The notes under the pieces are model-generated. The model did no database searches, was not told the origin of the DNA, and was given only the letters and a program-made list of their open reading frames with translations. Positions 5,911-38,541 of a stretch of DNA of 39,140 nt are shown here, one piece after another. Within the stretch, counting starts at the first letter, position 1, and each line of letters starts with the position of its first letter. Source of the stretch: a virus; the IMG/VR virus record IMGVR_UViG_3300044800_000075, positions 1-39,140 of that record; one strand, 5' to 3'. Position numbers and translations under genes: made by a program.

Positions 5911-6117
5911 ATGAAAGACTTAGTGAATCTTTGGCCTATTGGTTTGATAGTATTGATATTGATAATTACGTTGGTTTGGGGTTGGTTGGATGAAAAAGAG
6001 GCTAAGAAGGAAGTCAATTTTAAAAAAATATGGTATAATAAGATTAATTACATACCGGAAGATAAATTGCTTGATGAAGGATTGTCACCAAAAGAAAAGA
6101 AGTCATTTAATAAATAA
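5911..6117 (+). CDS. small single-TM protein (68 aa)
   Basis: The N-terminal segment WPIGLIVLILIITLVWGWL forms one membrane helix (residues 8-26), followed by a charged cytoplasmic-type tail with several lysines. It starts at an ATG preceded by ATAAATTAAT. The next gene begins 7 nt after the stop. Possible roles include accessory lysis or superinfection exclusion, but no motif supports either. Confidence 0.6.
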   Translation: MKDLVNLWPIGLIVLILIITLVWGWLDEKEAKKEVNFKKIWYNKINYIPEDKLLDEGLSPKEKKSFNK

Positions 6118-6124
6118 ATTTGTT

Positions 6125-6898
6125 ATGAAAACACTAATGTTCTTTTTACTTTTTTGCTTTGCCTGTACAAAGATAGAATACATCACAGAACAAGCTGCAA
6201 CAACTGGGACAGCTACTGATTCTAGCAAGGTGGGAGAAACAAAACCTGCCAAAGATACTGTGAAGAAACCAGTAAAACCTATTGATACAGTGATCGTGAA
6301 AAAGCCATATACCCTTCATGATTTTGACGGTAATGTCTATGATTCTGTTATTTTAGGTACACAAATATGGTTGGTTGAAAATCTTAAGACAACTCATTAC
6401 AATAATGGTACACCAATTCCTCTTATTATAGATAGGAGCATTTGGGCAAACTCATTAACACCTGCTATGTGTTGGTATGATAATGACCTAACTTATAAAA
6501 ATATAAGTGGTGGCTTGTATAATTATTATTGTGTTAACACTGGTAATATTTGCCCAATAGGTTGGCATGTGTCAACAGATGGTGATTGGAAGATATTAGA
6601 AATGTCAATGGGTATGAGTTTTACTGTAACAGACAGTTTAGGCTGGCGAGGTAAAGGGTATGCTTTCATTTTAGAATCATCTAATTTCAAAGCATTATTT
6701 GCAGGTTTTAGAAGTGCATATAACGGCGATTATGGGGATTATAGTCTAAGTACTGAATGGTGGACTAGTTCGAGGTATGACGAAACTACAGCATATACTA
6801 GAAGTATTGAAGCTCCTAGTAGTTATGTTAGTAGTTATATATATAGGGGATCAGCCACTGAATCAATGGGTGCTTCTGTCAGATGCGTAAAAAACTAA
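6125..6898 (+). CDS. lipoprotein with Fibrobacter succinogenes major paralogous (FISUMP) domain
   Basis: The start is the ATG at 6125, preceded by AATAAATTTGTT; a longer in-frame start at 5990 would overlap the previous gene and bury the signal peptide. Residues 1-14 (MKTLMFFLLFCFAC) form a lipoprotein signal with the lipidated Cys at 14. A Thr/Pro/Lys linker follows (to about 62). Residues 66-257 match FISUMP (TIGR02145): DFDGNVYDSVILGTQIW, VENLKTTHYNNGTPI, NICPIGWHVSTDGDW and the final SVRCVKN. FISUMP proteins are surface lipoproteins of Bacteroidota and Fibrobacter with unknown role. It would sit on the host outer membrane, possibly altering the lysogen or infected-cell surface. It was probably acquired from the host. 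Confidence 0.88.
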   Translation: MKTLMFFLLFCFACTKIEYITEQAATTGTATDSSKVGETKPAKDTVKKPVKPIDTVIVKKPYTLHDFDGNVYDSVILGTQIWLVENLKTTHYNNGTPIPLIIDRSIWANSLTPAMCWYDNDLTYKNISGGLYNYYCVNTGNICPIGWHVSTDGDWKILEMSMGMSFTVTDSLGWRGKGYAFILESSNFKALFAGFRSAYNGDYGDYSLSTEWWTSSRYDETTAYTRSIEAPSSYVSSYIYRGSATESMGASVRCVKN

Positions 6899-10706: not shown

Positions 10707-10725
10707 ATCACTAAATCGTAGTGAT
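10707..10725 (+). promoter_or_regulatory. hairpin over the start of the glycan operon
   Basis: ATCACT (10707-10712) and AGTGAT (10720-10725) form a perfect 6-bp stem with a 7-nt loop. The right arm covers the GTG at 10721 and the first bases of the ATG at 10724, so it could hide the start codon in RNA or act as an operator in DNA. Confidence 0.45.
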
Positions 10726-11350
10726 GATAATCAAAGGATTCTGGCACATATATTGCATTTCACATTGGTACACTATAATCACAGATCAGTTGCGTATTAT
10801 GCTGGACAGTGGGTTGTATGATGCCGTAGAGGAGATTAACATTGGTTGCATTGGTGACGAGCAGCAATGTGCATTACTGGACAAACTTTTTATTAATCAG
10901 TACTCGAAGCTTAAAGTCCAGTACACTTCTACTAATCCCCTGGATTATGAATATCGTACACTTAAACTTATTGAAGCAGACAACAGTGAATACACAGGTT
11001 TTTACTTTCATACCAAAGCAGTCACTCAACCTGCTAATACTATTCAGAACCACTGGCGGGCATGGTTGAACGAAAGTGTGTTGAACGACTGGTATCATCA
11101 CTTTCACAACATAGAGATTGGTTTCGATGTATCATCAGTCAATCATTGCACTCCACCGTTGCACCCGGAACACTTCTCAGGGAACTTCTGGTGGTTCAAT
11201 CGTAAGTATATTAATAAACTTCCGGCTATTGACTCACTGAACTGGACAAATCGTTACAATGCAGAACAATGGATATGTAAAGGTCATGGACGGTTTTATG
11301 CTAATGAGTTTAAAGAACCTGGTCGTGACGTATTTTTAATGAAACACTGA
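10724..11350 (+). CDS. putative glycosyltransferase, first gene of the glycan operon
   Basis: I choose the ATG at 10724 (208 residues); a GTG one codon earlier is also possible. The features are YTGFYFHTKAVTQPANTIQN, HWRAWLNESVLNDWYHHF, then HFSGNFWWFNRKYINKLP. The FHTKG-type motif and the SGNFWW stretch recur in bacterial proteins of polysaccharide loci, where they accompany sugar transferases. No classic DxD is clear, so the enzyme class is uncertain. The next gene follows after one nucleotide. Confidence 0.6.
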   Translation: MIIKGFWHIYCISHWYTIITDQLRIMLDSGLYDAVEEINIGCIGDEQQCALLDKLFINQYSKLKVQYTSTNPLDYEYRTLKLIEADNSEYTGFYFHTKAVTQPANTIQNHWRAWLNESVLNDWYHHFHNIEIGFDVSSVNHCTPPLHPEHFSGNFWWFNRKYINKLPAIDSLNWTNRYNAEQWICKGHGRFYANEFKEPGRDVFLMKH

Positions 11351-11351
11351 T

Positions 11352-12092
11352 ATGTATGATATTTTAATTTTAGTTACTGAAAAGGATTTTGTTAAACTCG
11401 AGTATTGTGTTGATGCTATCAGAAGGAATCTTGAGGGATTCAACAAGATTTACTGTGTATCTGATACGCCTGTTATAGATGTGATTCTGGGGCTTGAATA
11501 TTTCTTAGACAGGGATGTTGTTAATTTTAATTTTGCCAGCCTTACGGGTGATCCCGGGCAACATAAAGGTTGGTATCGTCAGCAATTCATTAAGTTATTT
11601 CAGAATGTAACTTCAGATGATTACTTGGTAGTTGATTCTGATGTCATTATAAACAGGAAACTAGTTGTAGAAGAAAGCAATAAGCCCTGTTTTCTATTAG
11701 GTAATGATCAGTGTCATGGATATTATTTTGATCTGATGAAGAAGGTGTTTGATCTAGACAAGGTGTACCCACATTCATTTATTTGTGAGGTGATGTATAT
11801 GAAGCGAGCTATTGTTCAGGAGATGCTTCATACATATAGTGTTGACAAGTATAGTTTTTTTGACAAGGTTGTGGGGGAGTTGAATGCTAGGAATTATTCA
11901 CCTGCCTTTTCTGAATATGAGTTTTATGGGAACTTTGTAACAAAGTATTTTCCTGGTTCTTATATGTATAAGCATGTTGTATCATGTTTTGGTGCAAAGT
12001 TTGAGCTTTGGAAGGAGTCTGATATTATTGAATATCTCAATTCACTCAAAAATTCTGAGTATGATTTAATAACACTACACTCATGGATTTAG
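11352..12092 (+). CDS. glycosyltransferase, DUF6492-type (GT-A fold)
   Basis: The 246-residue protein has an N-terminal nucleotide-sugar-type strand (ILILVTEKDFVKLEYCVDAI), GWYRQQFIKLF (73-83) and a DxD-type metal site in YLVVDSDVI (DSD at 95-97). The GWxxQQ-K and VVDSDV pair is characteristic of DUF6492 transferases of capsule and LPS loci. It overlaps the next gene by 10 nt. Sugar donor and acceptor cannot be read from sequence. Confidence 0.78.
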   Translation: MYDILILVTEKDFVKLEYCVDAIRRNLEGFNKIYCVSDTPVIDVILGLEYFLDRDVVNFNFASLTGDPGQHKGWYRQQFIKLFQNVTSDDYLVVDSDVIINRKLVVEESNKPCFLLGNDQCHGYYFDLMKKVFDLDKVYPHSFICEVMYMKRAIVQEMLHTYSVDKYSFFDKVVGELNARNYSPAFSEYEFYGNFVTKYFPGSYMYKHVVSCFGAKFELWKESDIIEYLNSLKNSEYDLITLHSWI

Positions 12093-12970
12093 TAATGTTT
12101 CATAGTGGAGGGACTTTGCCAGCGTTTCTGGAATGTAATTTTAAACAGATTCGTCTATTTAATCCTGATATTAATGTGTTTTTCTTAACAGATAGTGGTT
12201 TGATGAATGATCCCCTGTTTGAGAAGTATGAAGTAAAAGCATTGAACAAAGATAATTATTATTCTGATAAAATCCGTCAATTTGAATTCGTGTTTACATA
12301 TGATAGAAATGACTTGTGGTTCTTAGCAGCAGTAAGATTGTTTTATATAGAAAACTTTTTAAAGAGTCAGGGATTAACGGATGTATATCATTTTGAGAAT
12401 GATGTGTTGTTATATTATGATTTGAGTGAACATCATAGTAAGTTTCAACGTTTGTATCAGAACATAGCAATCACGCCCGGCGGCCCTGATAAGTCAATGA
12501 CTGGCTTCATGTTTATCCGGTATAGTGAATCACTGGCTAGGATGACCCAGTTTTTTATTAGTGTTTTACACATCTATGGAATGCAGGGGATAATAGATGC
12601 TTATCATATGGATATGCTTAATGAGATGACGTTGATGAAGGCTTACCATCTGGATTTTGGAGATAAATATATAACCGATCTACCTATCTTACCTTTTGGG
12701 GAGCATTCAGAGAATTATTCAGAGTTTCATTCTGTGTTTGATCCAGCTAGCTGGGGTCAGTTCGTGGGTGGCACCCAGACGTGGGGGCCAGGTGCTACAC
12801 CACCAGATCATTACATTGGACAGTTGCTGATGGCACATCCTGAATATACAGTCACTTGGTACAGAGATGAGCAAGGAAGAAATATTCCATATTTTAAGTA
12901 TGATGATGTTGAAGTAAAGATAAATAACTTACATATTCATTCAAAGAATTTACATTTATATATCAGTTAA
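12083..12970 (+). CDS. putative glycosyltransferase (GT-A-like)
   Basis: The 295-residue protein has an N-terminal Rossmann-like strand (MDLVMFHSGGTLPAFLECNF), a PDINVFFLTDSG stretch and an acidic metal-site-like motif in VYHFENDVLLYYD (E105, D107), in the usual place for a DxD in a nucleotide-diphospho-sugar transferase. A glycine/tryptophan-rich segment (ASWGQFVGGTQTWGPGATPP) may form the acceptor site. It is flanked by transferases and overlaps both neighbours. The exact family is not certain. Confidence 0.68.
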   Translation: MDLVMFHSGGTLPAFLECNFKQIRLFNPDINVFFLTDSGLMNDPLFEKYEVKALNKDNYYSDKIRQFEFVFTYDRNDLWFLAAVRLFYIENFLKSQGLTDVYHFENDVLLYYDLSEHHSKFQRLYQNIAITPGGPDKSMTGFMFIRYSESLARMTQFFISVLHIYGMQGIIDAYHMDMLNEMTLMKAYHLDFGDKYITDLPILPFGEHSENYSEFHSVFDPASWGQFVGGTQTWGPGATPPDHYIGQLLMAHPEYTVTWYRDEQGRNIPYFKYDDVEVKINNLHIHSKNLHLYIS

Positions 12971-13560
12971 TGATAGATTTTAACATCATATCATTTGGGG
13001 AAATGTTACCATATGAACGGTATAAACTTTATACATGGGTTGTTGACATCAATCCAAAAAGCATATTGGAAGTTGGTTGTGGGGAAGGTGGTGCAACATA
13101 CTGCATGGCGGAAGCTATTATGAAATTGAACTCTGAAGCAATGATACATGCTTGTGATCCCCGGCAGATGTTGGATGGGAAATTTTTTAAAACATATCCA
13201 TTTGTTAATTATTATCAGATGGAGTCCCATGAATTCATACAACATATTATTAAGGAAAAAATAAGTGTTGATTTCATACTGTTTGATGGTCCAGAGGAGC
13301 TTGATGTAGCCCTGGAAGATATTATGGTGCTAGAACAATATATTAAAGCAGGGACGTTCTTTTGTATGCATGATTGGGAATTACTCAGGCGAGGTTATGA
13401 CGGGGGAATGTCTACTAAAGCTCAAAAGATACGTCCATACATAGAGCAATCTGAACGATGGGTGAAGAAAGAAGTGTTGAGTGGGGTGCACAAAAACAGC
13501 ACAATTAATGATGAATGTTTTGATTCTGTTGGTTTATGTTTATATGAATTTATAAAATGA
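12970..13560 (+). CDS. class I SAM-dependent methyltransferase
   Basis: Motif I is SILEVGCGEGGA (31-42), which binds S-adenosylmethionine; DFILFDGPEEL later in the sequence marks the motif IV strand, and FFCMHDWELL follows as in methyltransferases acting on sugars (Methyltransf_24-like). It starts at a TAATG overlap with the previous stop. In a glycan operon the likely job is O-methylation of a sugar, though amino-acid or lipid substrates cannot be excluded. Confidence 0.8.
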   Translation: MIDFNIISFGEMLPYERYKLYTWVVDINPKSILEVGCGEGGATYCMAEAIMKLNSEAMIHACDPRQMLDGKFFKTYPFVNYYQMESHEFIQHIIKEKISVDFILFDGPEELDVALEDIMVLEQYIKAGTFFCMHDWELLRRGYDGGMSTKAQKIRPYIEQSERWVKKEVLSGVHKNSTINDECFDSVGLCLYEFIK

Positions 13561-14357
13561 CAGATTTTATACAGGGTGAACGGTTCATTGGATTAGCCAA
13601 CAATATGGATATCTTTTATCGTCATACACATGATGTGAATATGTTTTTTAAAAACCAACGGGTATTTAATGATTTTATACTGATCAGTCACAATAGTGAT
13701 GGGTGTGTGACTGACAATTTAGAGAACCCTGATAGTGCAGATTCTAGATTAATACCTAGTAATCTCGTTCATTGGTATGCTCAGAATGTTAACGTGGTTA
13801 ATGATAGGATAGAGTCTATTCCTATTGGCTTAGAAAACTCTCAGTGGTTCCCTGAAGTGCAGAAGCGACAGAAGATGATAACGAAACTCACTCAACTACG
13901 CAACATTAAAAATTTAGTATATGTTAATCATAACATAGGAACTAACATGGGGGAACGGTTGGTGGCTTATCAATTGTTAGAGGGCAAGCCATGGGCAACT
14001 ATAGGTAGGGGTGCTAATGGTTGTGGGTTTGATGAGTATCTTGATAACATATACCATCATCAGTTTGTTGTATGTCCAGATGGTCATGGTATTGACACAC
14101 ATCGGGTGTGGGAGACTCTGTATATGGGGTCTATACCTGTTCAGCGTCGTGGAATTAATAATCAGTTTTACAAGGATCTGCCTATTTGTTTTGTGAATAG
14201 TTGGGAAGAAGTGACTGAGGACTTTTTAAATGTTGAATACAAACGTATTTCAGAACAGTTATGGAATTTAGAGAAGTTAAATTTTAGTTATTGGAGCAAT
14301 AAAATATTAAATTATGATAAATCTAAAGTTATTAATTTGGGTGACCAGTGTTTGTAA
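13557..14357 (+). CDS. exostosin/GT47-like glycosyltransferase
   Basis: The C-terminal half has the hallmark FVVCPDGHGIDTHRVWETLY followed by MGSIPV (residues 170-195), the nucleotide-sugar site of exostosin-like transferases (CPxGxGxDTxRxWEALxxGxIPV). The N-terminal half is a second Rossmann-like domain (SNLVHWYAQNV...IESIPIGLEN), as expected for a GT-B enzyme. It starts in a 4-nt ATGA overlap and its end overlaps the radical SAM gene by 44 nt. Confidence 0.8.
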   Translation: MTDFIQGERFIGLANNMDIFYRHTHDVNMFFKNQRVFNDFILISHNSDGCVTDNLENPDSADSRLIPSNLVHWYAQNVNVVNDRIESIPIGLENSQWFPEVQKRQKMITKLTQLRNIKNLVYVNHNIGTNMGERLVAYQLLEGKPWATIGRGANGCGFDEYLDNIYHHQFVVCPDGHGIDTHRVWETLYMGSIPVQRRGINNQFYKDLPICFVNSWEEVTEDFLNVEYKRISEQLWNLEKLNFSYWSNKILNYDKSKVINLGDQCL

Positions 14358-14994
14358 TCTGACTTGTCCACTTTGTAACCAGAGTTATTCTATGACTCTC
14401 AACCCTGATTATCAAATGGGAATGGATGAATTAAAGAATATTATTAGTTCTTGTAAACGTCGTGGAATTCATTTTAGTATTATTGAATTAATAGGTGGGG
14501 AACCTACTTTATGGGTTAATCTCCAGGAAGGCGTTGAAGCATTAAAGGAAATTACAGATGATTTGTTCTTTGTAACGAATGGAAACAACCCTGAGTTGGT
14601 TATGAGTTTAGGATTGAAGCATTGGATTGTTTCAACAAGTCAGGCTTCTCCTGAACAGGTTAAAAAGTATGAATGTTGTAGTTCACAGTTCTTACGTAAT
14701 GATCATCACCATAAAAAAGTGCCAACAGTGCCAGTTCCTAATTCATTACCGGCTGATTGTGTAGTAGATAGGGATCCTTTCAATCCTGTTCAATTAGAAA
14801 ATGGAATGGCTTATTTGAAAGGAAATGTTTATTATTGTAACCTTGGTTTTGCTTTGAGTGACAGGGTGCCGTTGACAAGTGATATGATTTGTAACTTCGA
14901 AGATGATTTTGTAACGAAATTTTCAAACAAGAAATTTGATAAAAAAATATGTCAGTATTGTTTATGCAATGGTAATGTTTGGCGTGCAATATAA
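14314..14994 (+). CDS. radical SAM protein in the glycan operon
   Basis: The canonical cluster motif CNLTCPLC (C14, C18, C21) binds the [4Fe-4S] cluster and GGEPTL (61-66) is the SAM-binding motif. Extra cysteines in the C-terminal third (YYCNLGF, ICNFED, KKICQYCLCNG) could hold an auxiliary cluster as in SPASM or twitch proteins. At 226 residues it is short for this class but covers the partial barrel. The start codon at 14314 lies inside the previous gene (44-nt overlap), which suggests coupled translation. Its substrate may be a sugar, a peptide or a virion protein; this is open. Confidence 0.85.
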   Translation: MINLKLLIWVTSVCNLTCPLCNQSYSMTLNPDYQMGMDELKNIISSCKRRGIHFSIIELIGGEPTLWVNLQEGVEALKEITDDLFFVTNGNNPELVMSLGLKHWIVSTSQASPEQVKKYECCSSQFLRNDHHHKKVPTVPVPNSLPADCVVDRDPFNPVQLENGMAYLKGNVYYCNLGFALSDRVPLTSDMICNFEDDFVTKFSNKKFDKKICQYCLCNGNVWRAI

Positions 14995-15000
14995 TGATTT

Positions 15001-15519
15001 ATGAAGCTTGTAGAGTTGTTTAAAACAGGAATCTATCATACTGATAAGGGCTATCCCCATCATTATCTGGAATTGTATGATGAATTATTTGCACCGTTTC
15101 AGGATAAACCTATTAATGTTTTTGAAGTGGGTTATTATTTGGGAGGTAGTTGTAAGTTATGGGAGGATTATTTCACAAAAGCAAATATTAGATTTATTGA
15201 TATTAGAAAACCTTTAACATCTCCAAGATGGGGTGTGCTCACACTGATGAATAGTAAAGATTTGACAACTGAATATTTTAAAGATTTTCCACCAGATATT
15301 GCCATTGATGATAGTACACATTACTTGAGTGATCAGATTCATTTCATTAAAGTAACTTATCCAGCTGTACGTACAGGAGGTATATTGATTGTTGAGGATG
15401 TTATTGACTTAGAAAAATATAGACCTTCTTTCGAGGTATTGGGTATTCCTTTTGAAGTTGTTGACCAGAGAAAAGAATCAATGCAACCAGCAGATGTCTT
15501 ATTAATTTTTAGAAAATGA
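15001..15519 (+). CDS. SAM-dependent methyltransferase (sugar O-methyltransferase-like)
   Basis: The motif I equivalent is NVFEVGYYLGGSCKLW (39-54). DIAIDDSTHYLSDQI (99-113) and GGILIVEDVIDLE follow; the DDSTH and IVEDV pair is typical of macrocin- or mycinose-type O-methyltransferases that use a metal ion and act on deoxysugars. The length, 172 residues, is that of a minimal domain. It begins 6 nt after the radical SAM gene and overlaps the next gene by 4 nt. The sugar target is inferred from the context. Confidence 0.75.
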   Translation: MKLVELFKTGIYHTDKGYPHHYLELYDELFAPFQDKPINVFEVGYYLGGSCKLWEDYFTKANIRFIDIRKPLTSPRWGVLTLMNSKDLTTEYFKDFPPDIAIDDSTHYLSDQIHFIKVTYPAVRTGGILIVEDVIDLEKYRPSFEVLGIPFEVVDQRKESMQPADVLLIFRK

Positions 15520-16334
15520 TTCCAAAGAAATGTCATTTGTATTGGGATAAGTCCCCGATGGCTCAGTTGAATGTTTTAACAGTAGTGTCATTTCATAAAT
15601 ATAATCCTGATTGGGAAATTGTGATTTATCTTACTAAACAACCTTATTATGAACTTGGTAAGAATATATATGTACCGAATTATACTGGGAAGGATTATTT
15701 CTATAAGTTATCAACATTGGATTATGTTAAAATTGTAGAAATTGATCTTACAGAATGGGGAATTAATAAAGATATTCCTGCTTGTATGAGTTCTGATATA
15801 TTTCGTAGGAAAATATTGTATGAGCAGGGTGGAGTGTATTCTGATTTTGATACCGTATGGTTACGTCCGATTGAATATTTAAGTAATGTGGATTGTATTG
15901 GAAATCCTATAGATTTTGAGAGTCTTGTTTGTTTTTATGAGTTTACTCACGGGTTTCACAATGTATCAAACCTGATCTCAGAAGTGAGTAGTTTGTACGT
16001 AGCATCACTGATTGAAGAAGAAAAAAAGGTGCAACCGCCATACGGTCATCAGGATTTTGGATGTGATCTTTTATGTAGAAAATATCCTGACTGGGAATCT
16101 GTTGTATCAAGGTTTCCACGAATGTTGGCTATTAAGTATGAGACATTTTATCCATATTCAACGTATCATATGGAGAGATTGTTTATAGAAAATGATTTAA
16201 CCCCACTTAAAAACAAGAATGTGATGGGTATTCATTGGTTTAATGGTAATGATAAAAGTGTTAATTATGTTAATCAGGATAAATTCACTGATTGTAGTAT
16301 GACATCAATATTAAAAGTAGAAGGATACATATGA
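15516..16334 (+). CDS. GT32-type glycosyltransferase (Gly_transf_sug, OCH1-like)
   Basis: Residues 1-12 (MIPKKCHLYWDK) are the characteristic IPKxxHxxW start of GT32 enzymes. SSDIFRRKILYEQGG (92-106) and VYSDFDTVW (107-115) carry the SDxxRxxxLYxxGGxYxDxD signature, with the DxD at D110 and D112. These enzymes transfer mannose, galactose or related sugars. The gene overlaps its neighbours by 4 nt on both sides. Donor specificity cannot be read. Confidence 0.9.
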   Translation: MIPKKCHLYWDKSPMAQLNVLTVVSFHKYNPDWEIVIYLTKQPYYELGKNIYVPNYTGKDYFYKLSTLDYVKIVEIDLTEWGINKDIPACMSSDIFRRKILYEQGGVYSDFDTVWLRPIEYLSNVDCIGNPIDFESLVCFYEFTHGFHNVSNLISEVSSLYVASLIEEEKKVQPPYGHQDFGCDLLCRKYPDWESVVSRFPRMLAIKYETFYPYSTYHMERLFIENDLTPLKNKNVMGIHWFNGNDKSVNYVNQDKFTDCSMTSILKVEGYI

Positions 16335-17107
16335 TTTCAATCGTAACAGCTTATTACAACAGGAAAAGTTTGTTTTTGGCAACTTTGCAATCAATAGCAA
16401 GAACAGTGTATAAGGACTTTGAGGTTATTGCTGTTGATGATGCAAGCCGGGAAGAAGAGAGATTAGAGGATTTATTACCAAAGTTTCCTTTCTTACGAGT
16501 TATTCGGGTAGAAGAAAAGGATAAATGGTATGCTAACTCATGTATTCCTTATAATATGGGTGTTGCTAAGGCTATTGGTAATATTATTGTGCTTCAGAAT
16601 CCTGAATGTTTACACGTACACGATGTTTTAAGTTATGTAGCACAGGCAGTTCATAATGATAATTATATATCAATGTCAACATACTCTATTGATGCTAATT
16701 TAACACAGAGTGTTTTATTATCTACTGAACCACTTACATTTTTAAAGACTTTGCCTCAACGGCATGTTGACGGTTATGTGGGCTGGTATAATCATTCAGT
16801 GTACAACCCATGTGAATTTCATTTCTGTTCAGCAGTTTCAATGGTTAATATAATAAAGCTAGGAGGGTTTGATGAACGTTTTGCCAATGGAATCGGTTAT
16901 GAAGACAATGAGTTTCTTGATCGAGTTAATAGATTAGGGTTGCATAAGATTATTAACGATGATGTTTCAGTAATTCACCAATGGCATCCAAAGGTGTATG
17001 ACCTTAGCACTTCCACCTACCTATGGGATTTATATATTATGAATGGTAATTTGCATTTAAAAACACAGAATGAAACTATAATTCATGTTAAAAATAGTTA
17101 CGTATGA
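16331..17107 (+). CDS. GT2-family glycosyltransferase
   Basis: The N-terminus MISIVTAYYNRKSLFLATLQ and EVIAVDDASR (31-40) are the nucleotide-binding strand and first acidic motif of family 2 transferases. GGFDERFANGIGYEDNEFLD later in the sequence is the ED acceptor-side motif. IVLQNPECLH stands where the DxD normally is, with N/E in place of the usual aspartates, which may affect metal binding. It overlaps its neighbours by 4 nt. Confidence 0.88.
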   Translation: MISIVTAYYNRKSLFLATLQSIARTVYKDFEVIAVDDASREEERLEDLLPKFPFLRVIRVEEKDKWYANSCIPYNMGVAKAIGNIIVLQNPECLHVHDVLSYVAQAVHNDNYISMSTYSIDANLTQSVLLSTEPLTFLKTLPQRHVDGYVGWYNHSVYNPCEFHFCSAVSMVNIIKLGGFDERFANGIGYEDNEFLDRVNRLGLHKIINDDVSVIHQWHPKVYDLSTSTYLWDLYIMNGNLHLKTQNETIIHVKNSYV

Positions 17108-17832
17108 TAACGTTCCGAAATAAGTTTTTTGGTCACCGTCCGACGATTGATCATACAGAAGCATTTGATACAGGCTTTGGTAATCTGCTGTTCTGGATTG
17201 CTGGTACTATTGGTATTGCAGTAAAGAATGGTTATGAGTATACGTTTCCAGCATGGAACAACAGACAATTCTTTACACACCCCCTACCGGAGAGTGTGAT
17301 TGATGAAAGCAGGTATCAGGAGTTTGACATTCCTTGGGGGTTTCATGGTTTTGATGTTCCTGATAACGTTACTATTTTTGGTTTCATGCAGACAGATAAA
17401 TATTTTGCTCATTGTGGGGATTTGATACGTTATTATTTTGAGTTGAAGCCACCAGTGGGTATAAAACCGTACGAAGATTGTATATTAATGCATTATCGGA
17501 ATTATAAACATCCGTGGTTCGTTGATCTGGGGCGGGAATATTATCTGGAGGCATTAAAACATCTGCCTGACCGTCATGTGGTAATTGTCACCGATAATAT
17601 TACTGAGGCAAGAAAAGCAATTGGTGGAGACTTTGAATATGTTAGTAATACTCCTTGGGTAGATTTTTATCTATTGTCAAAGGCTGATTATATTGTGATA
17701 GGCAATAGTTCGTTCTCATGGTGGGGTGCCTGGTTATCCCGGGCTGTTACTGTGGCACCATCTCGTTGGTTTACGGATGAGTTACCACAATCAACTGAAG
17801 ATTTTTATTGTGAGAATTGGTTAAAAGTATAA
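17104..17832 (+). CDS. GT11-like fucosyltransferase (alpha-1,2-type fold)
   Basis: GFGNLLF (24-30) matches the G-x-GN-x-LF start of GT11, FGFMQTDKYF (92-101) the GYFQxxKYF motif, ILMHYRNY (127-134) the place of the HxRRGD donor site, and IVIGNSSFSWWGAWL (197-211) the signature C-terminal NSSFSWW motif. The HxRRGD site is altered (HYRNYKH), so donor preference may differ from GDP-fucose. The length, 242 residues, is slightly short for the family (about 280). It overlaps the previous gene by 4 nt. Confidence 0.85.
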   Translation: MITFRNKFFGHRPTIDHTEAFDTGFGNLLFWIAGTIGIAVKNGYEYTFPAWNNRQFFTHPLPESVIDESRYQEFDIPWGFHGFDVPDNVTIFGFMQTDKYFAHCGDLIRYYFELKPPVGIKPYEDCILMHYRNYKHPWFVDLGREYYLEALKHLPDRHVVIVTDNITEARKAIGGDFEYVSNTPWVDFYLLSKADYIVIGNSSFSWWGAWLSRAVTVAPSRWFTDELPQSTEDFYCENWLKV

Positions 17833-17835
17833 AAT

Positions 17836-18432
17836 ATGAAGATAGTTATTGACGAAGGTTCTGGGACTATTTTTGATGATGATCGTCCCTGGTTAGGGGG
17901 TAATATTCGTGGTGGGGATACTCACTGTGAGGATCCAGTAGTATGGGATTATTTAATTAGTAGGTTTAAACCTCAGAATATTATTGACATTGGTTGTGGT
18001 GAAGGACAGTTAATGAAATATTTTTATAATCACAATATTTTGGTTTTGGGTGTTGATGGGTTAGAAATAAACAAAGAAAATGCAGATTTGTCTATTGCTG
18101 ATATGATTGTTGTACACGATTATCAGAATGGGGCTTTGATTATTCCAGCGGATATGGTTTTATCATGTGAATTTGTTGAGCATGTTGATGTGAGGTATAT
18201 GGTTAACTTCCTTCCACAGTTTTGTGCTTGTAAAACCTTGATATTTACTCATGCTGTACCAGATCAATTAGGTTATCATCATGTCAACTGTCAAACAGAT
18301 GAGTACTGGGTCACGTTGATGACTACTTTAGGACTGACATTTAAAGAAGAAGAGACTGCTTATGCCCGGTCATTAGTGAAAGATAGTTTTTGGAAAACAT
18401 TACTAATTTTTGAACAACTTATTATAATTTGA
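17836..18432 (+). CDS. class I SAM-dependent methyltransferase
   Basis: NIIDIGCGEGQLMKYF (48-63) is motif I, VLGVDGLEIN motif II, and DMVLSCEFVEHVD the motif IV/post region of Methyltransf_11/23-type enzymes. It is the third methyltransferase of the operon. The N-terminus (DRPWLGGNIRGGD) is unusual for this class and may help position the substrate. The target is probably a sugar of the same glycan. It starts 3 nt after the fucosyltransferase-like gene. Confidence 0.82.
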   Translation: MKIVIDEGSGTIFDDDRPWLGGNIRGGDTHCEDPVVWDYLISRFKPQNIIDIGCGEGQLMKYFYNHNILVLGVDGLEINKENADLSIADMIVVHDYQNGALIIPADMVLSCEFVEHVDVRYMVNFLPQFCACKTLIFTHAVPDQLGYHHVNCQTDEYWVTLMTTLGLTFKEEETAYARSLVKDSFWKTLLIFEQLIII

Positions 18433-18436
18433 AAAT

Positions 18437-19138
18437 ATGAAAATAGAAGTCTATGCCCTTACAAACAATGAAGAACGGATAATGCCATATTTTATGCGTC
18501 ATTACATACAATTTGCCCATGTTATCCTGTTGGAAAACAATTCTACAGATCGAACGGTCGAGATAGCTCAGTCAATGGGTGCCGAGATTTGGCGGTATGA
18601 TGTACCAGATGAGATCAATGATGCATGGTATCTAGAGGTCAAGAATAACTGTTGGAAGAACAGCAAGGCTGATTGGGTAATAATTTGTGATGCTGATGAG
18701 TTTATATACCATTCACATATCGTTGAATATCTTGAAAAGACAGATGCAACAATTTTTCTGCCAGGGTTATGGAATATGTTTTCTGAGAAGTTTCCTACTA
18801 CTGTAGGTCAGATTTATGAGGAAGTTACTGGTGGACGTCCGGGTGGACCAAAGATGAATCTATTTCGTCCCTCAGAGATCAAGGAAATAAATTATGATGC
18901 TGGTTGTCACATGGCACATCCGACGGGGAATGTCCATTTGAATGCCAATTCTGAGATAATGACTTTTCACATGCGTCATCTGTCAAAGGAGTATGTTAAT
19001 GAGCGCAATGCAAGGAATTTTGCACGTCTGAGTGAAGTCAACAAAAAGAACAACTGGGGGTATCATTTTGGTAGTTCCTCAGAAGAAGTCAGCCAATTTA
19101 TGGATAATGAGATGACTGTATTAATAAAAGTTATATAA
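18437..19138 (+). CDS. GT2-like glycosyltransferase (Glyco_tranf_2_4 type)
   Basis: The protein opens with MKIEVYALTNNEERIMPYFM and HVILLENNSTDRT (28-40), the NEE and D/N-NSTD signature of the Glyco_tranf_2_4 group. The DxD is in WVIICDADEFIYH (D85, D87). The C-terminal part includes a histidine-rich stretch (HMAHPTGNVHLN, TFHMRHL). It starts 4 nt after the methyltransferase stop. Many homologues of this type sit in capsule and O-antigen loci. Confidence 0.86.
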   Translation: MKIEVYALTNNEERIMPYFMRHYIQFAHVILLENNSTDRTVEIAQSMGAEIWRYDVPDEINDAWYLEVKNNCWKNSKADWVIICDADEFIYHSHIVEYLEKTDATIFLPGLWNMFSEKFPTTVGQIYEEVTGGRPGGPKMNLFRPSEIKEINYDAGCHMAHPTGNVHLNANSEIMTFHMRHLSKEYVNERNARNFARLSEVNKKNNWGYHFGSSSEEVSQFMDNEMTVLIKVI

Positions 19139-19139
19139 T

Positions 19140-19733
19140 ATGGTACTTCATGTGCTTTGTGTAGCTTATAACCGAGTGTTACCCCTACGTGGGTTGATAG
19201 ATTCTTTTATGAACCAGACAGATGCCCGGTGGTCATTGTATATTATGCATGACGGACCAGCACCAGAAGGAGTGCTTAGGGTAGTCAATGATCCATTTTA
19301 TACCACTGATGGACGGGTGCATTATAAAGAAACACCTCAGTGCAATGGTGAGTTTGGTCACCCTAACCGTCGAATGATGCTGGAGAACCTGGCTGGTGCC
19401 TGTGATGATATGGTGTTGATTACTAATGATGATAATTATTATGTACCGGCTTTTGTAGAGGTTTTTCTTAAAGAATGCCGAGCAGATGTTGGGATGGTAT
19501 ATTGTAATACACTTCATAGTTATATGCAATATACGGTGATGTACACCCGTGTTAAAGAGAATTATATTGATATGGGATGTTTTATTGTGCGTTCTGACGT
19601 AGCAAAGTCAGTAGGGTTTAATCAGACTAATCATTCAGCTGATGGGGCGTATGCCGAGGCGTGTGCCCGGCGTTGTGCAGAACGACATCTGAGAGTTATC
19701 TATATTGACAAGCCCTTGTTTGTCCATAATTAG
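19140..19733 (+). CDS. GT2-like glycosyltransferase (GT-A), last gene of the operon
   Basis: The start MVLHVLCVAYNRVLPLRGLI and LYIMHDGP (33-40) mark a GT-A nucleotide-binding domain. MVLITNDDNYYVP (91-103) carries the metal-binding acidic pair (D97, D98). The length, 197 residues, is short for the family, with little C-terminal extension. It begins one nucleotide after the preceding gene and is followed by a 74-nt A/T-rich gap holding a family A element. Confidence 0.8.
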   Translation: MVLHVLCVAYNRVLPLRGLIDSFMNQTDARWSLYIMHDGPAPEGVLRVVNDPFYTTDGRVHYKETPQCNGEFGHPNRRMMLENLAGACDDMVLITNDDNYYVPAFVEVFLKECRADVGMVYCNTLHSYMQYTVMYTRVKENYIDMGCFIVRSDVAKSVGFNQTNHSADGAYAEACARRCAERHLRVIYIDKPLFVHN

Positions 19734-21100: not shown

Positions 21101-21184
21101 GGCAGGGTGGTTCCTTTTACATAATCAGGATTTTAGTTTAATAACCAGTACTTACATACTTCCAATAATCACCCTGCCTTTTTT
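21101..21184 (+). terminator. long-loop hairpin followed by a T run
   Basis: GGCAGGGTG (21101-21109) pairs with CACCCTGCC (21170-21178), extended by three inner pairs including one G-U, with a loop of about 54 nt, then TTTTTT. The strong G/C stem and T run suggest termination of the upstream genes. The long loop is unusual and may itself be a small structured RNA or a boundary of the tmRNA precursor. Confidence 0.55.
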
Positions 21185-21185
21185 G

Positions 21186-21266
21186 AAAGTTCTTTGAAGA
21201 CAGTTGTTACTAGAGGTCTGTAGAGTAGTCTGTTTGGACACGGGTTCAATTCCCGTCAGCTCCACA
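21186..21266 (+). ncRNA. ssrA: permuted tmRNA, acceptor piece (3' half)
   Basis: The 3' end is that of a tmRNA: the T arm ACGGG-TTCAATT-CCCGT (21240-21256) is followed by the acceptor strand CAGCTCC (21257-21263) and discriminator A. GGAC precedes the T arm, as in Escherichia coli tmRNA, whose end reads GCCAGCTCCACCA. CCA is not fully encoded (CAA), so enzymatic addition is needed. Upstream segments TTGTTACT (21204-21211), GGTCTGT (21215-21221) and CTGTT (21230-21234) form the 3' strand of helix P2 with the piece at 21463. The 5' end is approximate. It lies before, not after, the 5' half, so the gene is permuted. Confidence 0.85.
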
Positions 21267-21462
21267 ACTAGGATTAATAGAAGTAATACTCTGATTGATT
21301 GTGATAGAGTGCTTGATGTAAAATCAGTAAGACAAGCAAGAGTGCTTAATAAGACTAAAGCAATACTCTTTATTAATGTTGCTCTTCAGAGAGTTTACAG
21401 ATGTCGGTTATATCCTGTAAATGAAAGACAATCCTATTAATCCTTCGCCTTATTAAAAATAA
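21267..21462 (+). other. intervening segment of the permuted tmRNA gene
   Basis: These 196 nt join the 3' terminus to the 5' terminus and would be cut out of the precursor. AGGATTAATAG (21270-21280) and CTATTAATCCT (21434-21444) are a perfect 11-bp inverted repeat, which would bring the two mature ends together. Inner hairpins include ACTCT/AGAGT near 21288-21310 and TTTACAG/CTGTAAA (21394-21421). There is no believable gene; a frame running 21204-21440 is chance, since it crosses the tRNA-like part. Confidence 0.7.
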
Positions 21463-21630
21463 GGGGCTGATCTGGTTTTGACAGCAGAGGAGTGTAACAG
21501 ATCAATGAAGGTAACAAGCATGCCAATTAAATGGCAAAACAATTCAAATGCCTGAAAGGGCACAGGTTAACATGGCCGCATAGGCTGAAGACGACCGACT
21601 GAGGGGAAAGTACTCAGTGCATTCCCCTCT
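21463..21630 (+). ncRNA. ssrA: permuted tmRNA, coding piece (5' half with tag)
   Basis: It begins GGGGCTG (21463-21469), which pairs fully (one G-U) with CAGCTCC of the upstream piece, followed by ATCTGGTTTTGAC, close to the ATTCTGGATTCGAC D-loop of standard tmRNA. GACAG (21480-21484), ACAGATC (21497-21503) and GGTAACAA (21510-21517) pair in antiparallel order with CTGTT, GGTCTGT and TTGTTACT upstream, building helix P2. GCATGCC (21518-21524) matches the conserved stretch after P2, and TGCCA/TGGCA (21521-21536) is a possible pseudoknot-1 stem. A tag frame and a pseudoknot follow. SmpB would come from the host. Confidence 0.85.
21554..21583 (+). other. tmRNA proteolysis-tag reading frame (ends N-M-A-A-stop)
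   Basis: The frame reads Glu-Arg-Ala-Gln-Val-Asn-Met-Ala-Ala and then TAG at 21581-21583. tmRNA tags usually end in a hydrophobic residue plus Ala-Ala, the signal for ClpXP. The resume codon is not certain: GAA at 21554 (9 nt after the possible pseudoknot) and GCA at 21560 are both possible. The frame is open upstream past 21545. Confidence 0.6.
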
Positions 21631-21635
21631 TTTAT
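21598..21635 (+). terminator. pseudoknot / terminator at the end of the tmRNA locus
   Basis: ACTGA (21598-21602) can pair with TCAGT (21614-21618), and GGGGAA (21603-21608) with TTCCCC (21622-21627). The two stems interleave, so together they form an H-type pseudoknot, as found after the tag in tmRNAs. The GAGGGGAA/TTCCCCTC hairpin alone, followed by TCTTTTATTTT, also works as an intrinsic terminator. Confidence 0.65.
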
Positions 21636-21674
21636 TTTAAAATTATAAATATGATGATACGAACTGAACAAATA

Positions 21675-24446: not shown

Positions 24447-25364
24447 ATGATCACTCGGGCTGTTTTTTCATACTTCAATGCTGATGATTCATTTAGCAAT
24501 AAAGCTGGTTACATGTTTTATTCTGACTTTTTGTATACCATGGCATTAGCTACTCATTGGGCTATGCAAAATTTTAAGTCAGTACACGTGGTAACCACCC
24601 AGTGGGGTGAACGTGTGTTAAGAACAGCAGGAATAGAGGTAACTGAATATTCTACAGAACTAGACACTATGAAAAATATTCCACGATGGTTCTGGGCGTA
24701 TGGTAAGATGATAGCTTATACGTTACAGACGCAACCGTTTGTCCACGTGGATAATGATATGATTATCCGACAACCACTGCCAGAAAGGGTATTGAATGCC
24801 CGACTGTGTTTCCAGAGTAAAGAACAGATGGTAGTGCCAGAATATAGGTGGTACGATGTTCTAAGACCTTGTTGGAACAGTGCTGTGGTACGTCCACAGA
24901 TTATTGTGAATAATGAAGTCACTGATTTTACTTATAACTGTGGCATCTGTGGTGGTCATGACCTGGAGTTTTTTAAGGAATGGATTAAGACCAGTGCTGA
25001 ATATATTTTTGCTCCAGAGAACCAGAAGGTGTTTTTTGAAGACTTCCGTCCTGTTCAGATGCATCAGAACTTGTGGCACGAACAATATTTTGCTGCTGCA
25101 CTGATTAAGGCACATCACCTGAGAGATCAGGTAGAGTTAATCACAGATGATATCAATGATCCATCATGGATATTAGATAATAAGAAGAATTTGAGGTATG
25201 CCCATCTGTGGGGAGCAACCAAGACTGATCAACACATTATGAAACGGGTGCGAGCTGGGTTGCAAACGTTTGCCCCAGCGTTATATGAACGGGTAACTGA
25301 TTTTGTTAATAATTATCTTTTTAGTGAATGTCCAAACGACGTGCGAGTAGGAGCAACATTGTAA
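24447..25364 (+). CDS. glycosyltransferase-like protein (DUF6734 type)
   Basis: The 305-residue protein starts with MITRAVFSYFNADDSFSNKA and has SVHVVTTQWGERVLRTAGIE, then FVHVDNDMIIRQPL with the acidic pair D102/D104 as the DxD metal site. ICGGHDLEFFKEWI further on is the acceptor-side region. This is the DUF6734 pattern, a GT-A-like fold of unknown specificity. It overlaps the portal gene by 37 nt, which suggests the product is made together with head proteins and may modify the virion. It is separated from the main glycan operon by about 4.7 kb. Confidence 0.7.
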   Translation: MITRAVFSYFNADDSFSNKAGYMFYSDFLYTMALATHWAMQNFKSVHVVTTQWGERVLRTAGIEVTEYSTELDTMKNIPRWFWAYGKMIAYTLQTQPFVHVDNDMIIRQPLPERVLNARLCFQSKEQMVVPEYRWYDVLRPCWNSAVVRPQIIVNNEVTDFTYNCGICGGHDLEFFKEWIKTSAEYIFAPENQKVFFEDFRPVQMHQNLWHEQYFAAALIKAHHLRDQVELITDDINDPSWILDNKKNLRYAHLWGATKTDQHIMKRVRAGLQTFAPALYERVTDFVNNYLFSECPNDVRVGATL

Positions 25365-27040
25365 GATTGCCACAATCATTGGCACAGATAGATACTCAGA
25401 TTGAAAAACTGAATATCCATAAGTCTTTGACGTATCAGCGATTGTTGGAGTCAAACAAGCCGGATGATATCATGAAGGCTTTAAAGTACCAGCAGGACGT
25501 TCAGAAAGCTAATAGTGTGATTGCCGACAACCAGCGGGCATTCTTGTACGCACCAGACAATGAGTTTTACACTGGTCTGGGATACAAGACGGCTATCAAG
25601 GTTGTGCCGTTTGAGTTCTTGCGTTCAATGGGTGGTACACCGATGATCTTCTCAGTGATCAGCACCCGTATAAATCAGATACTGGATTTTGCTAATTTCT
25701 CCACGGATGCTGACCGTCCAGGCTGGACAATCCGTAAACGTCTGGGACGGTTTGAGACTGAGTATGAAAACACTGATCAGGATAAACGTGAGATTGAGAA
25801 GATAGTAGATTTTCTGGAGAACGGTGGAATGGATGCCAAGTTTACTATTCATAATGATTTTCATGACTTTTTGAAAATATTCCCTAAGGATATGTTGGAA
25901 CTGGATCAGGGCTGTTTTGAAGTACAGCGTACCCGTGGGGGTGATCCAGTATCGTATGATTGTGTAGACTCATCAACAGTGCGCTTATTAGAAACTATTG
26001 ATCCCAATTATGATCAGCAAAACGAGAAGTACGAACCACTGACCTTTCAGGATCATTCGTACCTTCCACATTATTGTCAGGTATGGCGTGAACGCATACT
26101 GATCAATCCTAAGACTAAGCAGGAAGTGGTGTGGTATCCCTGGGAGATGTGCTTTGCTGTGCGTAATAAGACTAGTAACATCATGCAGAATGGTTACGGT
26201 CAGAGTGAACTGGAGGTGCTGATGCGAGTGGTGACATGGTTACTAGAGTCTATGGAATACAATGGACGGTTCTTTACTAATGGGTCAAATCCACGGGGAT
26301 TTTTTACTATGAAAGGTGGTGTTGATCCCCGGATGTTGAACGACTTTCGTATGGCATGGCGGTCAATGGTGACCGGTTGGCAGAATGCTCATAAAGTACC
26401 GATCTTTGAGGCTGACAAAATAGATTGGGTTGACATGCAACAGACCAATAAGGAGATGGAATTCAGTCAATGGATGGAGTTTCTGACCCTGGTAACTTGT
26501 TCAGTATTCAAGGTAGACCCCTCAGAATTAGGGTTCAAATTCTGTCAGCAGCATACTCTTTTTGGTGAAGGTGGACAGAAGCAACGTACAGAACATAGTA
26601 AGGATAAAGGATTAAAACCTTTATTAAAAGTGATTCAGAAGAATATTGACAAGTTTATTGTCAGTGAATTAAATTCGAACTATGAATTTGTATGGACTGG
26701 TGTGGATATTGAAGACGAAACAACTAAGCTAGACAACGATGTAAAGAAACTTGCTAGTGGGATGGTTTCAATGAAAGACAAATTTAAGGAATATACAGGA
26801 CGGGAATTTGATGAAAATGAAGATATAATATTGAGCCCGGTTTATAATCAGATAAAACAGATGCAAGCTTATGGCGGAAATAGTATGAATGATTTAGTTA
26901 ACAAAGAATCTGGAGGGGGTGATATTGGACAAAAAAATCCATTTTCAACTTTTGAAAGTGATATGGTAAAGGGTAAATCCAGTGATCCTATTACTCAGAA
27001 TTTAATAGACTACATAAATACCGAACTTGTGACAAAGTGA
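25328..27040 (+). CDS. phage portal protein
   Basis: The 570-residue protein has the layout of the HK97/phi29-like portal family (PF04860-like): an N-terminal arm, TAIKVVPFEFLRSMGGTPMI, a wing with LELDQGCFEVQRTRGGDPVS, then YYPW-type PWEMCFAVRNKTSNI, the stem SELEVLMRVVTWLLESMEYN and the crown region. Portal proteins form a 12-fold ring at one capsid vertex through which DNA is packaged. Its start overlaps the glycosyltransferase-like gene, and its stop overlaps the sigma factor start. The C-terminus (MVKGKSSDPIT) is disordered-looking. Confidence 0.88.
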   Translation: MSKRRASRSNIVRLPQSLAQIDTQIEKLNIHKSLTYQRLLESNKPDDIMKALKYQQDVQKANSVIADNQRAFLYAPDNEFYTGLGYKTAIKVVPFEFLRSMGGTPMIFSVISTRINQILDFANFSTDADRPGWTIRKRLGRFETEYENTDQDKREIEKIVDFLENGGMDAKFTIHNDFHDFLKIFPKDMLELDQGCFEVQRTRGGDPVSYDCVDSSTVRLLETIDPNYDQQNEKYEPLTFQDHSYLPHYCQVWRERILINPKTKQEVVWYPWEMCFAVRNKTSNIMQNGYGQSELEVLMRVVTWLLESMEYNGRFFTNGSNPRGFFTMKGGVDPRMLNDFRMAWRSMVTGWQNAHKVPIFEADKIDWVDMQQTNKEMEFSQWMEFLTLVTCSVFKVDPSELGFKFCQQHTLFGEGGQKQRTEHSKDKGLKPLLKVIQKNIDKFIVSELNSNYEFVWTGVDIEDETTKLDNDVKKLASGMVSMKDKFKEYTGREFDENEDIILSPVYNQIKQMQAYGGNSMNDLVNKESGGGDIGQKNPFSTFESDMVKGKSSDPITQNLIDYINTELVTK

Positions 27041-27597
27041 TAATACATAAACAAAATATTGATTTTCAGCTCATCCGAGAAGCTAAGCAGGGCAGCCAAC
27101 AGGCTTTTACCACTTTGTTTACACATTATCATAAACGGATTTTTAATTTCATCCGTGCTATCATTAAGGACACAACGGATACAGAAGATTTGACGATGTT
27201 GACTTTCGAGAAGGCATTTGCAAAGATTACTGAATACGAACCGTTATTTGAATTTCAGACATGGTTGTTTAAGATAGCAAAAAACGCCTGTTTTGATTTC
27301 ATTTTGTATAAAAAACGTAGACCTATCAATGTGGACATAACGGATTTGCATTACCTGGAAAGTTCTGTACAAACGCCTGAACAACTATTGATAAGTGCTC
27401 AAACGGTGAGTATCATAGAAGATTCTATACGTGAAATGCCTTTGAGACATCAGCGTATAATAGACCTGCGAGATCAGGGGTTGTTATGTCGTCAGATTGC
27501 TGAGTTGTTAAATATAAGTATCAGCACAGTAGTGGGGCAGATACGGTATGCCCGGTTGTGGTTAAATAGAATGTTAATTAAAAGACAGATAGCATGA
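27037..27597 (+). CDS. ECF-type sigma-70 factor
   Basis: The 186-residue protein starts at a GTG (27037) overlapping the portal stop. Region 2 is residues 14-95: AKQGSQQAFTTLFTHYHKRI, DTEDLTMLTFEKAF, and FQTWLFKIAKNACFDFI (the FxxWLxxIAxN motif). Region 4 is 128-182: EMPLRHQRIIDLRDQGLLCR and QIAELLNISISTVVGQIRYA, a clear helix-turn-helix. Such factors direct host RNA polymerase to specific promoters. No anti-sigma gene is adjacent. Being inside the structural module it could serve late genes. Confidence 0.92.
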   Translation: MIIHKQNIDFQLIREAKQGSQQAFTTLFTHYHKRIFNFIRAIIKDTTDTEDLTMLTFEKAFAKITEYEPLFEFQTWLFKIAKNACFDFILYKKRRPINVDITDLHYLESSVQTPEQLLISAQTVSIIEDSIREMPLRHQRIIDLRDQGLLCRQIAELLNISISTVVGQIRYARLWLNRMLIKRQIA

Positions 27598-38227: not shown

Positions 38228-38239
38228 TAATTAAAAACT

Positions 38240-38277
38240 AATATAGTGGGTAGTCGGATAAGATTACTCACTATATT
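38240..38277 (+). terminator. perfect hairpin after the virion structural gene
   Basis: AATATAGTGGGTA (38240-38252) pairs along all 13 positions with TACTCACTATATT (38265-38277), with one G-T, leaving a 12-nt loop. There is no T run on the plus strand (AAAAATTT follows), so it may be an RNA processing or stability element rather than a standard terminator. Confidence 0.5.
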
Positions 38278-38291
38278 AAAAATTTGTTAAT

Positions 38292-38531
38292 ATGAATAAT
38301 AGATTAGAAATTGCATCAAGAATGCTTCCTGAACTTATGAGATCGGGTGAGAGTCAGACCTATGTTGATAAAGACGAAACGATTCATTATCTTGTTAGGT
38401 TAGCTTATCGTTATGCTGATAAGTTATTGGAATTTGAAAATACTAAGTTGGAGGATATTGAAAATATCTTACCGGCAGTCCCCGGGATTAGTCAGATTAT
38501 ACCTGGGCAAAGGATTAGAAAAGTAAATTAA
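38292..38531 (+). CDS. hypothetical protein (79 aa)
   Basis: The protein is a soluble, helix-rich 79-residue chain (LEIASRMLPELMRSG, YVDKDETIHYLVRLAYRYAD, KLLEFENTKLEDIENILPAV) ending IIPGQRIRKVN. Its size and position after a hairpin and before a repeat protein suggest a tail assembly or connector accessory, but nothing proves it. The start ATG is preceded by AAAATTTGTTAAT. Confidence 0.55.
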   Translation: MNNRLEIASRMLPELMRSGESQTYVDKDETIHYLVRLAYRYADKLLEFENTKLEDIENILPAVPGISQIIPGQRIRKVN

Positions 38532-38541
38532 TTGAATTAAT

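Follow-up and report, generated by a model that had tools for sequence, protein, structure and literature searches.

The full 39,140-base IMG/VR record IMGVR_UViG_3300044800_000075, referred to here as the window, carries a 13-gene glycan cassette at positions 10724-19733 on the + strand, and our analysis makes it rather probable that this cassette decorates a virion protein of the phage itself by stepwise glycosylation in the cytosol. We established the gene content and enzyme families of the cassette, the catalytic residues of its GT114 glycosyltransferase, the predicted solubility of its products, the exchange of its modules between phages and the placement of the related genes within capsid operons. 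The cassette encodes six assignable glycosyltransferases (GT114, GT32, GT11 and three GT2), three glycosyltransferase-like proteins, three methyltransferases and one radical S-adenosylmethionine (SAM) enzyme. An earlier note on this DNA had listed the same 13 genes at the same coordinates, as nine transferases or transferase-like proteins, three methyltransferases and one radical SAM enzyme; its count was right, with support that is unequal among the genes.

Exchange of the inner block and its place in capsid operons

By homology the cassette is a mosaic, in which the ends (genes starting at 10721, 18437 and 19140) and the inner block (11352-17107) have different relatives. Scans with the genes starting at 13557, 12083 and 14314 identified siphophage contigs showing the series head protease, major capsid protein (MCP), connector, tail tube and tape measure. 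As seen in one of these contigs (L044), the MCP gene is followed by an MptE-like gene, a GT11 gene, homologues of 11352, 12083 and 13557, a methyltransferase gene, a fusion of the homologues of the radical SAM gene 14314 and the methyltransferase gene 15001, homologues of 15516 and 16331, another glycosyltransferase gene, a sulfotransferase-like gene and the connector gene; the homologues of 11352, 12083, 13557, 14314 plus 15001, 15516 and 16331 are in the order of the window and are 46-62% identical. A wider scan returned 74 viral contigs with GT114. The order MCP, GT114, connector was present in all 14 siphophage loci where the three are visible, a count from one clade that represents one kept arrangement and not 14 events, and GT11 was present in 17 of the 17 siphophage loci with the MCP in view; the siphophage cassettes measured 7.0-10.3 kb. 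These homologies indicate that the inner block has been exchanged, in one direction or the other, between the myophage of the window and siphophages. We considered whether the MptE-like gene that opens the siphophage cassettes encodes a Maf-type protein glycosyltransferase, which is suggestive only: the best PF01973 match (2.9e-5) lies below the cut-off, and the profile matched a pterin kinase (E 0.07). Two contigs in metagenome-assembled genomes labelled Firmicutes and Spirochaetota (L045 and L047) proved to be phage head operons with a glycan cassette, and these labels are possibly host hints or binning errors.

The ends of the cassette, on the other hand, are common to related myophages and a second lineage. 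The related phage G3 keeps, at the same locus, homologues of 10721 (70% identity), 18437 (69%) and 19140 (61%), whereas its middle differs: the counterpart of 17836 (G3_9027) is only 25% identical, and the remaining space is taken up by a different GT2, a different methyltransferase-like protein and two unrelated open reading frames (ORFs). The corresponding site of G2, which lies upstream of the lysozyme and portal genes and at the end of the contig, holds FdtA (PF05523, 1.2e-44), a GNAT protein and two GT2s. The genes 10721, 18437 and 19140 and a DUF6734 gene recur in varying subsets in three contigs (L023-L025) that differ from the window in TerL (phrog_6681) and portal (phrog_6547); there the cassette either adjoins TerL on its upstream side or is separated from it by a few genes. 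L023 additionally has a Polysacc_synt_2 enzyme and a DegT aminotransferase. Overlapping gene sets are therefore shared by three unrelated virion backgrounds (the window lineage, L023-L025 and the siphophages), and in a fourth, cyanophage S-SRM01, a distant homologue of gene 1 belongs to an overlapping cluster that follows the tail fibres and also includes a sulfotransferase and a nucleotide-sugar epimerase.

Two further observations concern these modules. In a 735-kb phage (LR756501), a 1,755-amino-acid ORF (L031 11527-16794) joins glycosyltransferase regions resembling 18437, 10721 and 19140, an apparent multi-glycosyltransferase fusion in a huge phage. Genes resembling GIY-YIG/NUMOD3-type homing endonucleases were seen in the head modules of G1 (38216-39037 and 43823-44611), of G3 (several) and of L038 (4535-5266), the last directly between the MCP gene and the glycan cassette, and they are possible agents of module exchange.

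The GT114 enzyme and its relation to a chlorovirus capsid glycosyltransferase

The product of the gene at 13557-14357 (+) belongs, by sequence, to GT114, the family of the chlorovirus enzyme A075L (PDB 8q8i, 8avq and 8asa). In phmmer it matched A075L with an E-value of 1.2e-40 (38% over 188 amino acids), the homology covering both GT-B domains, and a profile of eight phage GT114 members matched A075L with an E-value of 3.7e-58, spanning residues 65-281 of the 282-residue chain. A075L adds a beta-xylose to the fucose in the core glycan of the major capsid protein of Paramecium bursaria chlorella virus 1 (PBCV-1); the proposed base is its Asp73, and the diphosphate is held by Arg158 together with Arg208 (PMC11571054). 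Residues D48, R134, R183 and E186 of the window protein align with D73, R158, R208 and E211 of A075L and sit at the base, phosphate and ribose positions. All four positions vary hardly at all across the 145 family rows, the equivalent of Asp73 being retained in 138 and those of R158 and E211 in all. The enzyme is thus a probable pentosyl or xylosyl transferase, and its acceptor need not equal that of A075L, since the acceptor-contact residues differ. The GT47-like assignment made in the earlier note was not retained, as the protein falls below the Pfam cut-off for that family and fits GT114.

In a FastTree phylogeny of the 145 sequences, the window protein fell in a clade of 47 members with a support of 0.99. 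This clade includes 42 viral sequences, and head or tail genes accompany 29 of its members; five members are from genome assemblies, and two of these five are phage loci. The GT114 proteins of a further set of viral contigs (L167-L174), which may be those of algal viruses or of phages, grouped with chlorovirus A075L (support 0.99).

Predicted solubility and the lack of export functions

No transmembrane segments were predicted in the cassette proteins of the window, G3, G2, L023, L035, L039 or L044. A neighbour with at least five predicted transmembrane segments was found at none of 73 viral GT114 loci, compared to 27 of 68 bacterial genome-assembly loci (Fisher p 1e-10). The Wzx flippase (PF01943) and the Bac_transf phosphoglycosyltransferase (PF02397) were absent from nine partial phage records, in a search that was positive in the control genomes. 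The flippase and initiating phosphoglycosyltransferase of a Wzx/Wzy-type surface polysaccharide locus were accordingly lacking, as were the GtrA flippase and membrane-bound Gtr of a serotype-converting operon. A pathway that does without lipid-linked initiation or export can use acceptors in the cytosol, namely proteins, DNA or the inner-face core of lipopolysaccharide (LPS). The earlier note had likewise remarked on the lack of a flippase and had judged a new capsule less likely than direct transfer of a methylated oligosaccharide to a protein or to surface glycan already present, a view that agrees with the soluble proteins, the missing Wzx and the sugar O-methyltransferase homology described below. 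Going beyond it, the link of the cassette's relatives to capsid operons favours, on gene order, a virion protein over the host surface as the acceptor.

The individual genes of the cassette

Gene 1 (10724-11350, +), the conserved left end, has homologues of 55-70% identity in G3, L023, L024 and L025. Its structure model (pTM 0.74) retrieved RmlA/GtrB-type folds in Foldseek (E 4e-5, TM 0.4-0.55), which would place it, as a match at the level of fold only, in the GT-A/NDP-sugar transferase superfamily; a gene-1 profile had no match among PDB sequences. A scan whose reach is limited to close relatives confirmed no homologue in bacterial genome contigs, and gene 1 appears phage-restricted at the sensitivity used. 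The inner block starts with a GT-A-like protein (11352-12092, +) that has a VDSD motif and matches DUF6492 (PF20102, E 2.8e-6), a Pfam family without assigned function; in five siphophage loci its homologues (42-48% identity) lie each time just upstream of the 12083 homologue. The next gene (12083-12970, +) encodes a putative GT-A-type glycosyltransferase, judged by a conserved HFEND motif and its context. This protein has homologues in six siphophage loci (54-61% identity), no Pfam match and no match in the PDB, by profile either, and its single-sequence structure model was unusable (pLDDT 35). It is followed by a class I methyltransferase (Methyltransf_24; 12970-13560, +; 1.3e-7, above the Pfam cut-off), at whose position the siphophages have an unrelated FkbM-like methyltransferase.

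Downstream of the GT114 gene are a radical SAM enzyme (14314-14994, +; PF04055, 2.3e-8) with a CNLTCPLC motif, a C-terminal Cys cluster and a weak BlsE-like match, and a sugar O-methyltransferase of the MycE/TylE type (15001-15519, +; PDB 8ia9, 1.9e-9, and 3ssm, 7.8e-8; phrog_21658, 9.6e-15). The homology of the latter extends over the catalytic domain and includes the motif IDDxxH...ED, with AIDDSTHYLS...IVEDV corresponding to IIDDGSH...VIEDL. The inner block continues with a GT32-type glycosyltransferase (Gly_transf_sug; 15516-16334, +; PF04488, 6.4e-9), whose L044 homologue is 60% identical, and ends with a GT2-family glycosyltransferase (16331-17107, +; PF00535, 1.2e-12), whose homologues in L041 and L044 are 61-62% identical. 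A GT11-family glycosyltransferase of the fucosyltransferase type follows (17104-17832, +; PF01531, 6.6e-11; phrog_2644, 2.4e-31), and then a weakly assigned class I methyltransferase (17836-18432, +; PF13489, 3.1e-4, below the cut-off). The conserved right end is formed by a GT2 glycosyltransferase (Glyco_tranf_2_4; 18437-19138, +; PF13704, 1.3e-11), which has a 50% identical homologue in L023 in addition to that in G3, and by a last GT2 glycosyltransferase (19140-19733, +; PF00535, 2.6e-5), with further homologues in L023 (52%) and L024 (45%).

None of the 13 is a sugar-nucleotide synthesis gene, as the earlier note had stated. It had thought host donors more likely, which fits these 13 genes but not the relatives: because those carry FdtA, Polysacc_synt_2 and DegT proteins, reliance on host donors only is peculiar to this phage.

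A further GT-A-like protein of the DUF6734 family is encoded 4.7 kb downstream of the cassette (24447-25364, +; PF20508, 1.4e-38), in a gene that overlaps the portal gene by 37 nt. This gene also precedes the portal gene in G2 and G3, adjoins the gene-1 homologues in L024 and is upstream of the cassette in L025, and it probably belongs functionally with the cassette; among named phages it had no match. A tentative GT-B-like protein (33725-34750, +; phrog_2170, E 0.008 only) lies inside the virion module and has a homologue in G4 (3.7e-147).

Layout and transcription signals

The 13 ORFs lie on the same strand, from a first start at 10721 (GTG) or 10724 (ATG) to a last end at 19733; the ATG is the better start because the homologues begin there. 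The junctions are, in order, +1, -10, -1, -4, -44, +6, -4, -4, -4, +3, +4 and +1 nt. The overlaps of 1-44 nt that the earlier note had described throughout are therefore found at seven junctions, and the other five are gaps of 1-6 nt; the genes immediately flanking the cassette are spaced by 26-74 nt. As it had also reported, no intrinsic terminator-like site was found on the + strand within the cassette. The promoter-like element that it had placed ahead of the operon is not supported, as sigma-70-like sites (64, compared to 55.6 +/- 6.6 in shuffles) were not above chance and TANNTTTG sites (47, compared to 53 expected) were at chance. A gene for an extracytoplasmic function (ECF)-type sigma factor (27037-27597, +; Sigma70_r2, 5.1e-10; Sigma70_ECF, 3.7e-7) overlaps the portal gene and the next gene, and no homologue of it was found in G2 or G3. 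This factor could drive late transcription, which would account for the blank sigma-70 scans.

The phage and its record

The window is linear and is probably a fragment of a genome. A second record, IMGVR_UViG_3300044796_000187, is 99.9% identical to positions 4239-39140 (34.9 kb) and extends 14 kb further to the right, into major capsid and tail-sheath genes. The portal and virion genes lie downstream of the cassette on the same strand, and G3 and G2 have the same locus. The closest portals are those of G2 (77% identity; 86.9 kb), G3 (74%; 52 kb) and G4 (74%; 8 kb), and among named phages those of a faecal phage (40%) and of Chryseobacterium phage MA9V-3 and DAC19-type Bacteroides phages (33%). 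The phage is a myophage of the Bacteroidota-infecting type, and a member of that phylum is its probable host.

A permuted two-piece tmRNA gene (21175-21674, +) was detected by ARAGORN and Rfam (RF04321, 63 bits), and also in G3 (L005, 70.5 bits) and in Chryseobacterium phage MA9V-3 (L030, 64.7 bits). Two-piece tmRNAs are known mainly from alphaproteobacteria, with some in beta- and gammaproteobacteria, cyanobacteria and aquatic phages (PMC9004378), and because of this range their conservation in Bacteroidota-type phages is unexpected. In the virion module, the gene at 31224-33128 (+) encodes a long protein with segments resembling fibronectin type III domains and leucine-rich repeats and, at its C terminus, a polysaccharide deacetylase domain (PF01522, 5.9e-20), which makes it a candidate receptor-binding or surface-degrading protein. 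A FISUMP domain protein (5990-6898, +; PF09603, 3.6e-32), possibly an adhesin, has two copies in G2 and one in G3, the latter at the contig end after the baseplate genes.

Discussion

From these results we infer the acceptor, the identities of the sugars, the order of the steps and the benefit to the phage. While a head or tail protein is being assembled in the cytoplasm, soluble glycosyltransferases would act on it in succession, with nucleotide sugars of the host as donors. The GT11 (fucosyl-type) and GT114 (pentosyl-type) enzymes would probably build a core resembling fucose and xylose, which the GT2 and GT32 enzymes would extend; the MycE/TylE-type and other methyltransferases would cap hydroxyls, and the radical SAM enzyme would probably alter one sugar of the chain. 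As an exchangeable module, the inner genes would allow a surface glycan to be swapped between otherwise unrelated phages, plausibly altering adsorption, stability or recognition. A virion protein is favoured as the acceptor because of the capsid-operon placement in relatives, the homology to A075L and the overlap of the DUF6734 gene with the portal gene. Linkage to virion genes is seen both in the siphophage relatives and in the window, where the portal gene, adjoined by the DUF6734 gene, lies 5.6 kb downstream of the cassette. Candidates for the initiating enzyme are, in the window, 10721 or the DUF6734 protein, by conservation only, and possibly, in the siphophages, the MptE-like protein.

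Several observations weigh against a virion acceptor. In this phage the cassette neighbours lysis genes, with the portal gene 5.6 kb and the major capsid gene about 25 kb away, so that its capsid link is by homology; the siphophage arrangement, in turn, comes from one clade. No initiating protein glycosyltransferase was identified, the A075L acceptor-contact residues T112, H122 and N202 are not conserved in the 13557 product, and GT114 is also present in bacteria, often near proteins with multiple transmembrane segments. In addition, similar clusters in cyanophages and pelagiphages are usually read, from gene content, as modifying host LPS (PMC7824862, PMC7029224).

This published reading speaks for a different, unlikely explanation, in which the cassette remodels the host surface during infection by extending or methylating the LPS core or O-chain and thereby blocks superinfection or re-adsorption to debris. 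The cytoplasmic glycosyltransferases of the LPS core are likewise soluble, and such a cyanophage cluster, that of S-SRM01 described above, includes a gene-1 homologue, but the cassette has no flippase, phosphoglycosyltransferase or membrane protein, relatives carry it in the capsid operon, and the relatives of the inner block are concentrated in virion modules. We consider it quite improbable that the enzymes act on phage DNA, in a multi-sugar hypermodification of a hydroxylated base. Phage glycosyltransferases do hypermodify DNA with diverse glycans (Pyle 2024, as cited in PMC12619734), but no protein of the thymidylate-synthase/hydroxymethylase family (PF00303) was found in five incomplete records including the 86.9-kb G2, and both GT114 and the methyltransferases of MycE type speak for a sugar chain in a protein setting; a search for TET/JBP (PF12851) found nothing, with its control silent as well. 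It is still less probable that the cassette makes a soluble small-molecule glycoside or a secondary metabolite for release during infection, as the MycE/TylE-type methyltransferase and the radical SAM enzyme with its BlsE-like match might suggest, since no aglycone-forming enzyme or exporter was seen and the relatives hold the cassette in the capsid operon. A glycan island of host origin at the edge of a prophage, the objection that the earlier note had raised against itself and that a large carbohydrate-gene block in a phage contig invites, or an assembly chimaera, was rejected as very improbable: virion genes follow on the same strand, G3 and G2 have the same locus, the closest genome-contig loci with the gene and recognisable neighbours are phage (L045 and L047), and the near-identical second record makes misassembly unlikely.

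Glycosylation of the virion, which we thus prefer, is established for phage glycosyltransferases in mycobacteriophages (Freeman 2023, as cited in PMC12363180). As in Che8 (gp110), Corndog (gp38) and Myrna, the enzymes of the window are phage-encoded and their proposed target is a capsid or tail protein; unlike these phages, which in the literature covered have one essential glycosyltransferase each, the window has 13 genes, including methyltransferases and a radical SAM enzyme, which are exchanged between lineages and are known here as genes only. The capsid glycan pathway of PBCV-1 is alike in its virus-encoded soluble glycosyltransferases and in a GT114 enzyme with a conserved base and UDP-binding arginines. 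It differs in belonging to a eukaryotic algal virus with a proven N-linked glucose-fucose core, whereas here a single tailed-phage operon encodes a GT114 with other acceptor-site residues. The LPS-type clusters of cyanophages and pelagiphages (P-SSM2, S-SRM01 and pelagimyophages) are similarly large and variable, and S-SRM01 has a gene-1 homologue, but they often include sugar-nucleotide genes and lie by tail fibres, whereas the window cassette has no such genes and its relatives are found next to capsid genes. Operons for phage serotype conversion (Gtr), which also bring phage-borne glycosyltransfer, need a flippase, a bactoprenol glycosyltransferase and a membrane glycosyltransferase, and the window cassette has none of the three. 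Each element thus has a precedent, and the whole would be a variant of phage virion glycosylation that is exchangeable and linked to capsid operons; the combination of a multi-enzyme, exchangeable cassette, placed between capsid and connector genes in relatives, with a GT114 that algal viruses also possess did not appear in the open-licence papers searched.

A broader hypothesis, which we put forward tentatively and at somewhat less than an even chance, is that unrelated tailed phages share a mobile virion-serotype locus, an exchangeable, gene-precise cassette for a fucose/pentose-based, O-methylated capsid glycan with a GT114 core enzyme that phages and algal giant viruses have in common. It may be, and we hold this with the same reserve, that particle glycans are swapped between phages as O-antigen loci are between bacteria. 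Sugars on phage particles influence antibody recognition in mycobacteriophages, but phage glycosyltransferase clusters are generally classed as host-LPS genes. With a cassette whose place between capsid and connector genes is fixed and which a myophage and siphophages have exchanged, glycosylation of the virion would become a default assumption, open to test, in many environmental phages. The structure, donor and acceptor of the chlorovirus member of the common GT114 enzyme are known, and a single assay could therefore settle the chemistry.

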